Assembly (NCBI RefSeq): GCF_001886815.1
Contig: NZ_CP018099.1
Span: 3,904,501-3,968,500, forward strand
Length of the DNA stretch: 64,000 bases
Direction: 5' to 3'
From: Caldithrix abyssi DSM 13497
GTDB lineage: Bacteria > Calditrichota > Calditrichia > Calditrichales > Calditrichaceae
The first letter of the stretch is position 1. Each line of letters opens with the position of its first letter. Of the stretch, positions 33,389 to 58,137 are shown piece after piece. The position numbers and the translations under genes were made by a program. A model generated the notes under the pieces. It was not told the origin of the DNA. It did no database searches and saw only the letters and a list, made by a program, of their open reading frames with translations.

Positions 33389-33417
33389 TTGATTTTATTT
33401 ACAAACCATTGTATAAT
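33389..33417 (+). promoter_or_regulatory. promoter of the threonine operon
   Basis: TTGATT (33389-33394), 17-base spacer, perfect TATAAT (33412-33417). Transcription should start near 33424, only about 18 bases before the leader-peptide ATG and seven before its GGAGG. Confidence 0.75.
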
Positions 33418-33441
33418 GCGCAAAATATTTCGGAGGTAAAT

Positions 33442-33570
33442 ATGCGTTTCATTTTTAACAGTGGCGGAAATTTTATTCATTTGCTGATTTTTTTGGTTGA
33501 AAAAAAATCGCCGGGTGCTTCACTTACCTCCACCACCACAACCACCACCTTTTTATTAAATTCAGGCTGA
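33442..33570 (+). CDS. thrL: threonine-rich attenuation leader peptide
   Basis: A 42-residue ORF with a strong ribosome site (CGGAGG at 33431-33436). It ends ...GASLTSTTTTTTFLLNSG: seven Thr and one Ser among eight consecutive codons at 33526-33549, mostly ACC. It is followed by a terminator and then by aspartokinase-thrB-thrC, the same logic as the enterobacterial thr leader (though without the Ile codons in the run). The peptide is probably not functional itself; slow translation of its Thr codons would signal threonine shortage. Sequence is unrelated to the E. coli leader. Confidence 0.88.
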   Translation: MRFIFNSGGNFIHLLIFLVEKKSPGASLTSTTTTTTFLLNSG

Positions 33571-33629
33571 AGTTCGGCGCAAAATAACCTGTTTTAAAAA
33601 ACCGGCTTCAGTCTGAAGCCGGTTTTTTT
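33563..33629 (+). terminator. transcription attenuator: antiterminator and terminator
   Basis: Terminator: ACCGGCTTCA (33601-33610), loop GTC, TGAAGCCGGT (33614-33623), then seven T. Antiterminator: CAGGCTGAAG (33563-33572) can pair with CTTCAGTCTG (33606-33615) through nine Watson-Crick pairs and one G-U, which would break the terminator's left arm. The upstream antiterminator strand covers the leader stop codon, so a ribosome that finishes the leader blocks it, while one stalled on the Thr codons (ending 33549) leaves it free. Confidence 0.85.
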
Positions 33630-33653
33630 GTGTTCAAAATCGGAGATATTCAA

Positions 33654-35057
33654 ATGAAAATATTGAAATTTGGAGGCACTTCGCTGGAAAATGCCGGGCG
33701 AATAGATCGCGTAACAACCATCATCCGGAATCTTTTACAGTCAAAGGAGCAAATTGCCGTTGTTGTTTCGGCCTTTGGCGGCGTAACCGATCTATTAATT
33801 CAAGCCGCTAAAAAAGCTGCCATTGGCGACGGACGCTACAGCGAACTGGAACAGCAGATCGAAGACCGGCATGTACATTTAATCCGGGAGCTGATTACCG
33901 TTCAAAATCAGAGTCATGCGCTGGCGCACATCATCCGTCAATTAAATGATCTGCACGATGTATTGCATGGTGTTTTTCTGGTTCGGGAACTATCGGCGCG
34001 CGTTCTCGATTTTATCATGAGTTTTGGCGAACGCCTTTCCGCCTTTATTGTGGCAGAGGTTTTAAAAGAAAAAAACATTACGGCGCAATTTCTTGACGCG
34101 CGGCAGCTCATCAAAACCAATGATCGCTTTGGGCAGGCGCAGGTTTTATGGCCGGACACGCTGGCCAACATTCAACAATATTTTCAAAAGCAAAACGCCT
34201 TGCAGGTTATTACAGGTTTCATCGCCTCTACTCTTAAAAATGAAACAACCACGCTGGGACGCAGCGGTTCGGACTATACGGCTTCCATCATAGGCGCCGC
34301 GCTCAATGCGCAGGAGATACAGATATGGAGCGATGTGAACGGCGTGATGACCGCAGACCCACGCCAGGTGCCGGAAGCTTTTACCCTGCCCCGGCTCACA
34401 TACGAAGAGGCCATGGAGCTTTCGCACTTTGGCGCGCAGGTCATTCATCCGCGTACCATGCAGCCGGCGCTGGACAAAAAGATTCCCATCCGCATAAAAA
34501 ACACCTTAAACGCCAAACATCCGGGCACCGTGATCAGCGCACAAGCCAACGCCTGGCCCTATCCGATCAAAGCCATTTCTTCGCTGGATGCCATCGCCCT
34601 GGTCAGCGTTATCGGCAGCGGGATGATCGGCGTTACCGGTATTGCCGGCCGCATTTTCACCGCTCTGGCCCGCGAAGGCATCAATATCATCTTAATTTCT
34701 CAGGCCTCTTCCGAGCACTCCATCTGCTTTGGCGTTTTGCCCGCATCGGCCACGCCGGCCAGAAAAGCGCTGGAACGCGAATTAAAGTTAGAATTAATGG
34801 AAAAAACCGTCAACAAAATACAGGTCGAAAACGATTTGTCGGTAATCGCCGTGGTGGGCGAAAAAATGAGGCGCACCCGAGGCATTGCCGGTAGGGCCTT
34901 CAGCGCCCTGGGCCACAGCGGCATCAACATCGTGGCCATTGCTCAGGGATCTTCGGAATTGAACATTTCTTTGGTGGTGGAACAAAAGGATTTAACCGCA
35001 GCCCTACAGGCCATTCACAAAGAATTTTTTAATTTGCAGCAGGAGACGAGCCGATGA
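33654..35057 (+). CDS. thrA: aspartate kinase, threonine-operon type
   Basis: A 467-residue aspartokinase, first step from aspartate to threonine, lysine and methionine. Catalytic features: KFGGTSLENAGR at the start, RSGSDYTASIIGAAL and WSDVNGVMTADPR. Two ACT domains follow (about 315-385 and 395-460; VSVIGSGMIGVTGIAGRIF and VVGEKMRRTRGIAGRAF), which bind the feedback amino acid. The arrangement resembles the kinase half of ThrA, but no homoserine dehydrogenase domain is fused. The ATG at 33654 has GGAG nine bases upstream; an upstream in-frame start at 33630 would begin within the terminator T-run. Operon position under a Thr attenuator suggests Thr feedback. Confidence 0.9.
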   Translation: MKILKFGGTSLENAGRIDRVTTIIRNLLQSKEQIAVVVSAFGGVTDLLIQAAKKAAIGDGRYSELEQQIEDRHVHLIRELITVQNQSHALAHIIRQLNDLHDVLHGVFLVRELSARVLDFIMSFGERLSAFIVAEVLKEKNITAQFLDARQLIKTNDRFGQAQVLWPDTLANIQQYFQKQNALQVITGFIASTLKNETTTLGRSGSDYTASIIGAALNAQEIQIWSDVNGVMTADPRQVPEAFTLPRLTYEEAMELSHFGAQVIHPRTMQPALDKKIPIRIKNTLNAKHPGTVISAQANAWPYPIKAISSLDAIALVSVIGSGMIGVTGIAGRIFTALAREGINIILISQASSEHSICFGVLPASATPARKALERELKLELMEKTVNKIQVENDLSVIAVVGEKMRRTRGIAGRAFSALGHSGINIVAIAQGSSELNISLVVEQKDLTAALQAIHKEFFNLQQETSR

Positions 35058-36013
35058 CTCTGAAACAAAATTTACATGCCGTAAAAGTCTTTGCCCCGGC
35101 CACAGTCACCAATGTGAGCTGCGGCTTTGACATCATGGGCTTTGCCCTCCGTCAACCCGGGGATGTGGTTGTGCTAAGGCGGAGTGGGCAAGCCGGTCTT
35201 ACAATCAAAAAAATTCAGGGACACGCAAATTCCATCCCATTTGAAGCGTCCAAAAACACCGCCGGCAAAGCTGTACTGAGCATGATGAAAGCGCTAAATT
35301 TAAAGGCCGGCTTTGAAATGGAAATTTACAAACAAATGGCTGTTGGCACCGGTCTTGGTTCCAGCGCGGCCAGCGCGGTGGCGGCGGTGTGGGCATTAAA
35401 TCGATTTCTAACCAGGCCGTTAAGTCGGGAACAGTTGTTGCCTTTTGCCCTTGAAGGGGAAAAACTGACTAGCGGCAACCACGTCCATGCCGACAACGTG
35501 GCGGCCTGCCTTTACGGCGGTTTTGTGGTAATTCGCAGCGTCGCCCCTGTAGAAGCGCTGGCCATCGATTACCCACATGCCTTGCATTGCGCTATTCTTC
35601 ATCCCAAAATTGAAATCAAAACAGCGGATATGCGCAACATCTTGCGCCAGCATGTCCCTCTGAACGACGCCATCCAGCAATGGGGCAACATAGCCGGACT
35701 GGTAATCGGCCTGCAAAAAGGCGACTTTGAATTGATCAGCCGCAGCCTGAACGATGTGATCATCGAACCGATACGCGGTAAGATCATTCCGGGGTATCAG
35801 CAGGCACGCCAGGCCGCATTACAGGCCGGCGCCCTGGGCAGCGGTATTTCGGGCTCTGGGCCTTCGCTTTTTGCCTTAACCACTTCCCTTGAAAGCGCCC
35901 GCCAGTGCGGCCAGGCCATGGCTGAGGTTTACCAGAAATTGGGCCTGGATTTCGATCTTTACCTCTCGCCCGTTAATCCGCACGGGCCGCAAGTGATTCA
36001 AAGCGAGGAGTAA
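35054..36013 (+). CDS. thrB: homoserine kinase
   Basis: A 319-residue GHMP kinase that phosphorylates L-homoserine. Motifs: VFAPATVTNVSCGFDIMGFA near the start, the ATP loop VGTGLGSSAASAVAAVWALNRF around residue 95, and GSGISGSGPSLFALT near residue 275. Overlaps the aspartokinase gene by four bases and ends two bases before the thrC start, so the three are one transcript. Confidence 0.95.
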   Translation: MTLKQNLHAVKVFAPATVTNVSCGFDIMGFALRQPGDVVVLRRSGQAGLTIKKIQGHANSIPFEASKNTAGKAVLSMMKALNLKAGFEMEIYKQMAVGTGLGSSAASAVAAVWALNRFLTRPLSREQLLPFALEGEKLTSGNHVHADNVAACLYGGFVVIRSVAPVEALAIDYPHALHCAILHPKIEIKTADMRNILRQHVPLNDAIQQWGNIAGLVIGLQKGDFELISRSLNDVIIEPIRGKIIPGYQQARQAALQAGALGSGISGSGPSLFALTTSLESARQCGQAMAEVYQKLGLDFDLYLSPVNPHGPQVIQSEE

Positions 36014-36015
36014 AA

Positions 36016-37317
36016 ATGCGTTTTTATTCCACCAAAAACAGAAGCCAGACATTTTCGCTTAAAGAGGCCATTTTACAGGGCCTTGCCCCAGACGGTGGTT
36101 TATTTATGCCAGAGGCCATCCCCCGTCTGGCGGATCAGGTCATCAACAATTTGCCAGAGATGACCTTTCAGGAAATTGCCTTGCAAATGGCCCGGCCGTT
36201 TCTACAGCAAGATTTTACTGAAACAGAAATCGAACGCTTAATCACGCAGGCTTTTGATTTTGGCGTTCCGCTTGTTCCCCTGACGGGCGAGCTGTTTGTG
36301 CTGGAGCTCTTCCACGGGCCGACGCTGGCCTTTAAGGACTTTGGCGCTCGATTCATGGCCCGGTTGGTAGAACTGATCACGCAAAAAGAGAATAAAGAAC
36401 TCACCATTCTGGTTGCCACCTCCGGCGATACAGGCAGCGCCGTGGCCCATGCTTTTTACAACAAAAACAATGTGCGCGTCATCTTACTCTACCCTTCGGG
36501 GATGGTCAGCGAAATCCAGGAAAAACAACTCACCATTCTGGGCGCAAATGTTACGGCATTGGAAATCGAAGGAACGTTTGACGATTGCCAGCGACTGGTC
36601 AAACAGGCTTTTTCTGACAAAGATTTACGCCGTAAACGGAATTTGACTTCGGCCAACTCCATCAATATTGCCCGACTTTTACCGCAAGCGTTTTATTACG
36701 CCCATGCCGTGGGACGACTGCCATTTAAAGATCGCCCTGTTGCGATCTCCGTTCCCAGCGGCAATCTGGGAAATTTAACGGGCGGACTGATTGCCCGGCG
36801 AATGGGCGTTCCCATCCATCAATTTGTTGCAGGTATGAACGCCAATGATGTCTTTTTGCAGTATTTAACCAGCGGAAGATTCACGCCGCGCATCGTTCGA
36901 CCGACCATCTCTAATGCCATGGATGTGGGAAATCCCAGCAACTTCTTTCGTATTTTAGATTTCTTTGAACACGATCATCAACGGATTAAATCGGCCATTT
37001 ACGGCGCCAGTTTTAATGATGCCCGGACGCGGCTGGCAATTAAGCAAGCATTCGAAAAGTACGCGTATATTTTTGACCCACACGGAGCCGTCGGATTGTT
37101 GGCCATGGAAAAATTTGTTCAGGATTGCAAGGCAGAAAACTGGCAAAAAATTGTTCTGGAAACCGCTCATCCTGCAAAATTCAAGGATGTAGTGGAAGAG
37201 AGTTGTGGGCAGGAAGTACAAAATCCCCCACGCCTTGCAGAGACGTTACAAAAAGAGAAAAAAGCGATCTTGCTGGATAAGGATTATTCGATTTTTAAAG
37301 AATGGTTGCTGAGCTGA
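36016..37317 (+). CDS. thrC: threonine synthase
   Basis: A 433-residue PLP enzyme converting O-phosphohomoserine to threonine. The N-terminal YSTKNRSQTFSLKEAILQGLAPDGGLFMPE is typical; the PLP Lys is in GPTLAFKDFGARFMARL; the phosphate-binding region is ATSGDTGSAVAHAFY; SVPSGNLGNLTGG and VGNPSNFFRI follow. Length and order fit the bacterial class that resembles E. coli ThrC. It ends the operon. Confidence 0.95.
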   Translation: MRFYSTKNRSQTFSLKEAILQGLAPDGGLFMPEAIPRLADQVINNLPEMTFQEIALQMARPFLQQDFTETEIERLITQAFDFGVPLVPLTGELFVLELFHGPTLAFKDFGARFMARLVELITQKENKELTILVATSGDTGSAVAHAFYNKNNVRVILLYPSGMVSEIQEKQLTILGANVTALEIEGTFDDCQRLVKQAFSDKDLRRKRNLTSANSINIARLLPQAFYYAHAVGRLPFKDRPVAISVPSGNLGNLTGGLIARRMGVPIHQFVAGMNANDVFLQYLTSGRFTPRIVRPTISNAMDVGNPSNFFRILDFFEHDHQRIKSAIYGASFNDARTRLAIKQAFEKYAYIFDPHGAVGLLAMEKFVQDCKAENWQKIVLETAHPAKFKDVVEESCGQEVQNPPRLAETLQKEKKAILLDKDYSIFKEWLLS

Positions 37318-57324: not shown

Positions 57325-57719
57325 GAGGAATCTTTAGCTTTTGGTGTCGGAAAAAGAACGCCGTATTTGATTGACTAATTGCTTAATTTAAAAATCCCGA
57401 AGGGATGAAATGATTATAGCCCGCCGTTTCAACGGCAGGTTTACCGTTCGGGCAGGTTTGCATGGAAACCGTTTCAACGGTTTACGCCAATGAACAACGG
57501 GATAACATCCTTCTTAATTTGGCTCTTTCCTTTCATTCGGAATGCCTATCCCCGTGCCAAAAATCCTGAACACTAATGGGAAAAATTGCCCAGCGGTAAC
57601 GTCCCCCTCTCCCAGACCTTATTGTGGGAGAGGGAGAATGAGGGGGGTGAGGGCTAATACATCAAATGCCTGCCATCGTCAGCGGAAAAAGGTTAAGAGT
57701 ATAAGAGTGTAAGAGTTAA
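57325..57719. repeat. tandem hairpin repeat, unit 1
   Basis: Starts GAGGAATCTTTAGCTTTTG and ends TAAGAGTGTAAGAGTTAAA. Contains GATTATAGCCCGCCGTTTCA; hairpin AAACCGT-TTCA-ACGGTTT (57466-57483); and a perfect 10-bp stem CCCTCTCCCA / TGGGAGAGGG (57605-57614, 57625-57634). The same blocks recur 443 bp further on. Confidence 0.85.
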
Positions 57720-57767: not shown

Positions 57768-58137
57768 GAGGAATCTTTAGCTTTTGATGTCGGGAAAAGA
57801 ACGCCGTATTTGATTGACTAATTGCTTATTTTAAAAATCCCGAAGGGATGAAATGATTATAGCCCGCCGTTTCAACGGCGGGTTAACCGTTCGGGCAGGT
57901 TTGCAGGGGAAACCGTTTCAACGGTTTACGCCAATGAACAACGGGATAACATTCTTTTTAGTTTGGCTCTTTCCTTCCACTCGGAACGACTATCCCCGTG
58001 CCAAAAACCCTGAACACAGCTGGCAAAAAATTGCCACCGGCAAACTTTCTCTCTCGCAGACTTTATTCTGAGAGCGGAGAATGAGGGCTACTTCTAAAAA
58101 TGCCTGATACCGTTGAAAGAAAAAAGTGTAAGAGTTA
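57768..58137. repeat. tandem hairpin repeat, unit 2
   Basis: Second copy of the preceding unit in the same orientation. Here the first hairpin is perfect (CCCGCCGT-TTCA-ACGGCGGG, 57863-57882), the second is AAACCGT-TTCA-ACGGTTT (57910-57927), and the third stem has decayed. Most of the unit is near-identical to unit 1 until the third stem. Confidence 0.85.

Follow-up and report, generated by a model that had tools for sequence, protein, structure and literature searches.

A probable leader-peptide attenuator upstream of the threonine operon of Caldithrix and similar leaders in related bacteria

The threonine operon and the parts of its leader

The window analyzed here is a 64,000-nt stretch (G000:C1:3904501-3968500) of a single-contig, 4.98-Mb Caldithrix genome (Calditrichota), and all features of the locus described below lie on its plus strand. 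The genes that follow the leader make the amino acid that the leader would sense. The first structural gene encodes a monofunctional aspartokinase of 467 aa (33654-35057, ATG at 33654), and it is followed by thrB, encoding homoserine kinase (35054-36013), and thrC, encoding threonine synthase (36016-37317), both of which score above their NCBIfam cut-offs. The aspartokinase and thrB frames share an ATGA overlap, with thrB beginning at 35054.

Upstream of these genes, a putative sigma-70-type promoter (33389-33417), placed purely by consensus match, consists of TTGATT (33389-33394), a 17-nt spacer, and TATAAT (33412-33417), agreeing with the consensus at 10 of 12 positions. By eye, a similar -10 region occurs in the same place at the corresponding loci of two other genomes of the genus (G002 and G003). 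Direct reading then gives a Shine-Dalgarno sequence, GGAGG (33432-33436), and a candidate leader peptide ORF of 42 codons, MRFIFNSGGNFIHLLIFLVEKKSPGASLTSTTTTTTFLLNSG* (33442-33570), which starts with ATG at 33442 and stops with TGA at 33568-33570. The ORF contains the codons ACC TCC ACC ACC ACA ACC ACC ACC (33526-33549), seven of the eight being Thr codons. No Ile codon falls within this run, and the three Ile codons of the leader are located far upstream of it.

A predicted intrinsic terminator lies between the leader ORF and the first gene (33596-33629). Its 15-bp stem is perfect, with arms at 33596-33610 and 33614-33628 enclosing a 3-nt loop, the T-run extends to 33629, and the structure is predicted to be stable at 60 C (-12.1 kcal/mol). 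A mutually exclusive antiterminator makes use of one terminator arm: its 5' strand (33563-33577) overlaps the leader stop codon and is predicted to pair with 33602-33615, a 3' strand held in common with the 5' arm and loop of the terminator. The core of this helix joins CAGGCTGAAG (33563-33572) to CTTCAGTCTG (33606-33615) by nine Watson-Crick pairs and one G-U pair, and beyond a one-base bulge (33573/33574) it is extended by CGG (33575-33577) pairing with CCG (33602-33604). The first-pass annotation of this DNA had listed the promoter, the GGAGG-led 42-codon ORF with seven Thr codons in eight, the antiterminator, and the terminator, followed by aspartokinase-thrB-thrC; each element was found in its place by direct reading, and the gene order is borne out by reading and by family models.

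Non-randomness and conservation of the leader

The Thr run is not a product of chance. The leader ORF is the only short ORF in the 64-kb window with at least five Thr codons in eight, and a run of at least six Thr codons appeared in none of 20 shuffles of the window and in none of 2000 shuffles of the upstream region. The leader as a whole folds better than its shuffles (z -2.7). More specifically, the duplex between the stop-codon region and the terminator arm reaches -16.7 kcal/mol, compared with -7.3 +/- 2.1 kcal/mol for shuffled sequences, none of which (0 of 1000) was as good.

The element is present in all four genus genomes, namely the window genome, G001, G002, and G003. The aspartokinases of G001 and G002 are 72% and 67% identical to that of the window, respectively, while the G003 leader, MDFSSTNFGKTGHFLSLTGTTTTRKGKGTG, was found by a covariance model on a separate contig, where it adjoins an aspartokinase start. 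The four leaders end in TTTTTTFLLNSG, TTTTTTFLNTG, TSTTTTLQGAG, and GTTTTRKGKGTG. Their N-termini are unlike by eye, and the Thr run, the stop-codon box GGCTGAAG, the terminator, and the alternative stems are kept, which is the pattern expected if the codons, rather than the peptide, are selected. The alignment of relatives proposed in the first-pass annotation, which anticipated a conserved Thr run and compensatory changes in both stems, thus gave a favorable outcome in four of four genus genomes, coupled changes included.

Thr leaders with an almost identical stem were also identified in Ignavibacteria and related records, and the layout recurs, with very different stem sequences, in two records from candidate phyla, one of Gracilibacteria and the other of Peregrinibacteria. 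In one of the Ignavibacteria and related loci (L036), the stop box GGATGAAG is complementary to the terminator CTTCATCC. No clear Thr leader was seen at 14 other Calditrichota loci outside the genus that have a related aspartokinase, and the weak covariance-model matches inspected in the phylum (E > 1e-4) were not thr-attenuator-like, his leaders excepted.

Covariation was examined in the shared-stem group of 11 sequences (alignment A1). Pairing is seen in 95.9% of cells for the terminator and in 90.9% for the antiterminator core, and in each helix two pairs have both bases changed; slid controls give no more than 53.7% and 50.0%, respectively. Because the sequences are related, the shuffle counts for this covariation are not probabilities. 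Both helices draw on alignment column 60. A G in this column faces C in the terminator and mostly C in the antiterminator, and an A, found in G001 and G002, faces T in both.

A terminator/antiterminator pair is, as is generally known, also a property of T-boxes, and the terminator could in principle be controlled by a directly sensing RNA, either a T-box or a threonine riboswitch, with the ORF being incidental. Against this stands the finding that the Thr codons, stop box, and terminator are conserved while the remaining leader differs among the genus members. In addition, no Rfam family, T-box and riboswitch families included, reaches its gathering score in the window leader or in the leaders of its relatives. 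The best family in the window leader was Thr_leader (RF00506) at 26.5 bits, below its gathering score of 55. We therefore give direct sensing almost no chance of being correct.

Two further kinds of sequence were observed upstream of related genes. Thr-run ORFs precede thrA-type genes in Bacteroidales (L093, L094, L098, and L099) and Balneolaceae (L085), where a CCCC-TAA-GGGG-like hairpin contains the stop codon and a clear T-run terminator is lacking; this layout is unlike that of the window. Upstream of aspartokinase at five other loci (L117, L118, L128, L129, and L141), ORF ends are rich in ACG Thr codons, for example TATSTHTQTMTR, and the stop codon lies at GCGTTAA...CGC-like hairpins with no T-run.

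Ribosome position and the proposed switch

The RNA 3' of the ribosome was folded for each leader codon, with the transcript ending where the antiterminator had emerged and the 3' arm of the terminator was absent. In this model, which assumes a 13-nt leading edge and coupled transcription and translation and does not extend to rates, 12-14 antiterminator pairs form whichever Thr codon occupies the A site, compared with 0-0.1 for a ribosome at the stop codon, and the drop occurs after the last Thr codon and before the stop. A stalled ribosome accordingly spares the antiterminator in the model and a ribosome at the stop codon covers it. Seven relatives and the positive control, E. coli K-12 thrL, gave the same kind of curve, and the folding logic of the window leader also holds at 60 C. 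The earlier claim that full translation blocks the antiterminator and that stalling frees it was thus reproduced by position-dependent folding.

With the 3' arm of the terminator present, the equilibrium always favors the terminator, and the switch must therefore be kinetic, as in known cases. The far greater stability of the terminator over the antiterminator at equilibrium could also be expected if the hairpin simply acted as a constitutive terminator or a dampener ahead of the operon, with no regulatory part for the Thr-rich ORF. This explanation leaves unaccounted for a Thr run beyond chance, a complementarity between stop box and terminator arm far beyond that of shuffles, the conservation of both helices with coupled changes, and the occurrence of the same layout before other amino-acid operons (see below). 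We consider it very improbable.

Given the parts of the leader, its non-randomness, its conservation, the coupled base changes, and its folding logic, the Caldithrix leader upstream of aspartokinase-thrB-thrC is very probably a real transcription attenuator of the classical ribosome-mediated type, controlling the threonine operon. We infer that it would work as follows. RNA polymerase would start about 7 nt past the -10 box, with a ribosome trailing on the leader ORF. When charged tRNA-Thr is ample, the ribosome would reach the stop codon and cover the 5' strand of the antiterminator, allowing the terminator to form and transcription to stop near 33629. A shortage of charged tRNA-Thr would instead stall the ribosome on the Thr run. 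Its leading edge would then reach no further than about 33560 and would not quite touch the antiterminator, whose free 5' strand would pair with the emerging 5' arm of the terminator, so that aspartokinase-thrB-thrC would be transcribed.

The first-pass annotation had further concluded from the run of Thr codons that the leader should respond to threonine alone. The absence of Ile from the run stands, but the specificity itself is deduced from codons, and the model reads through at any earlier stall or without translation. A variant of attenuation, which does not exclude the explanation above, is that the leader responds to Ile or Met in addition to threonine, or mainly to the general state of translation. 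Ile codons do occur earlier in the leader, Met is mixed with the Thr codons of Ignavibacteria leaders, and the model predicts readthrough wherever the ribosome stalls ahead of the final Leu codons. However, the window codons at the right spacing from the antiterminator are Thr and one Ser, with neither Ile nor Met among them, and we regard broader sensing as unlikely.

If left untranslated, the leader is predicted by the folding model to form the antiterminator and hence to permit readthrough, and folding of the window leader revealed no 5' protector hairpin for this situation. The Shine-Dalgarno region of the leader, GGAGGTAA (33432-33439), is complementary to TTACCTCC (33525-33532), where the Thr run begins, and the two pair in the untranslated fold. 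This pairing was set aside as a protector helix, as it leaves the antiterminator untouched and shows no evident conservation in relatives.

Known systems and other amino-acid leaders

The window leader resembles E. coli thrL-thrABC (RF00506 Thr_leader) in having a short Thr-rich ORF, with a Gly codon and TGA inside the antiterminator strand, a terminator arm shared with the antiterminator, and the same folding curve. The T-run follows the stop codon by 49 nt in E. coli and by 55 nt in the window. Unlike in E. coli, the run consists of Thr codons without Ile, the leader has 42 codons rather than 21, the stem sequence is dissimilar, and the first gene of the operon encodes a monofunctional aspartokinase. 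The Ignavibacteria and related leaders (L035, L036, L037, L039, L041, L043, L055, and L089) share the layout of the window, and their loci have a near-identical terminator arm, CCGGCTTCAG, and stop box, GGCTGAAG. They differ from the window in that their Thr codons are interspersed with Met, His, and Pro, and, at loci for which a frame length is available, a long fused frame of 814-829 aa comes first in the operon.

Leader-peptide attenuation is classical in Proteobacteria, as the first-pass annotation had stated, but it is not confined to them. Attenuators in Bacteroidetes/Chlorobi are said to have been predicted by Vitreschak et al. in 2004, and a survey across more groups was reportedly made by Lopatovskaya et al. 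in 2010. The Bacteroid-trp RNA has a role upstream of trp genes. This RNA (RF01692), listed as a Bacteroidetes candidate cis-regulatory RNA (PMC2864571), differs from the window leader in amino acid and phylum and has no match in the window. Descriptions of leader-peptide attenuation also exist for Actinobacteria (PMC1262725) and Firmicutes (PMC2965389); the former paper also cites the 2004 study, and the 2010 survey is cited in PMC4833913. Riboswitches are reported in the C. abyssi genome paper (PMC5317091), the main text of which uses neither 'attenuat' nor 'leader'. The annotation knew of no described case in the group, and our literature search for a thr attenuator in Calditrichota, which did not cover the 2004 comparative survey, likewise found no description, an absence that is not proof of novelty.

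Leaders of other amino-acid operons were identified in the same genome. A His leader, MPVRKKLNHTHCGHIHHSFIKGAQ, lies upstream of hisG (L147, reverse complement; G000:C1 ~2846160-2846400) with a terminator and a stop-codon antiterminator formed by CGCAATGA and TCATTGCG, and has counterparts in G002 and G003. A Trp leader, MGKMDYSRPKKLWWNWFKIK, lies upstream of trpE (L150; G000:C1 ~2255000-2255200), also with a terminator and an antiterminator, and has a counterpart in G001, in which the trp antiterminator pairs A-U at the positions of G-U pairs in G000. Both G000 leaders behave like the thr leader in the ribosome folding model. A Leu/Ile-rich leader (...LDNLLLLGIIIISLILILIIG) precedes ilvD in G000 (L163, reverse complement) and is also found at L164 and L166; its long-range structure is strongly conserved without a T-run terminator, and it may act by a route other than intrinsic termination.

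Two additional leaders come from G031, a genome of the same class as that of the window. The first, MILNTTTTSTTTTTVTTLSG, has 12 Thr codons, a terminator, and an antiterminator, and is located upstream of thrS, the gene for threonyl-tRNA synthetase (L181; G031:C66 ~69900-70100). The second is a Cys-rich leader (...CMCTMNCTCC...) with a terminator (L190; G031:C52 ~1420-1640), and the gene 3' of it reads like a putative cysteine synthase gene.

These leaders extend a textbook mechanism to a phylum for which we found no described case, several of them occurring in a single genome from the genus of a cultured thermophile, and the thr layout recurs in Calditrichota, Ignavibacteria, and candidate-phylum bacteria. 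It is conceivable, although we put this forward only tentatively and hold it to be somewhat doubtful, that leader-peptide attenuation is a general and old control of amino-acid operons (thr, his, trp, ilv-leu, cysteine synthase, and thrS) in Calditrichota and their relatives, and that the thr attenuator, whose stem is nearly identical in Calditrichota and Ignavibacteria, was inherited by both from their common ancestor or passed from one to the other together with the operon. Since the mechanism needs coupled transcription and translation, such coupling would operate in these lineages. The leaders can also aid annotation by pointing to missed small ORFs and operon starts, the thrS and cysteine-synthase cases included. 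Elsewhere in the window, the Rfam Acido-Lenti-1 RNA has two matches above its gathering score on the minus strand, at 57836-57882 and 57393-57439.
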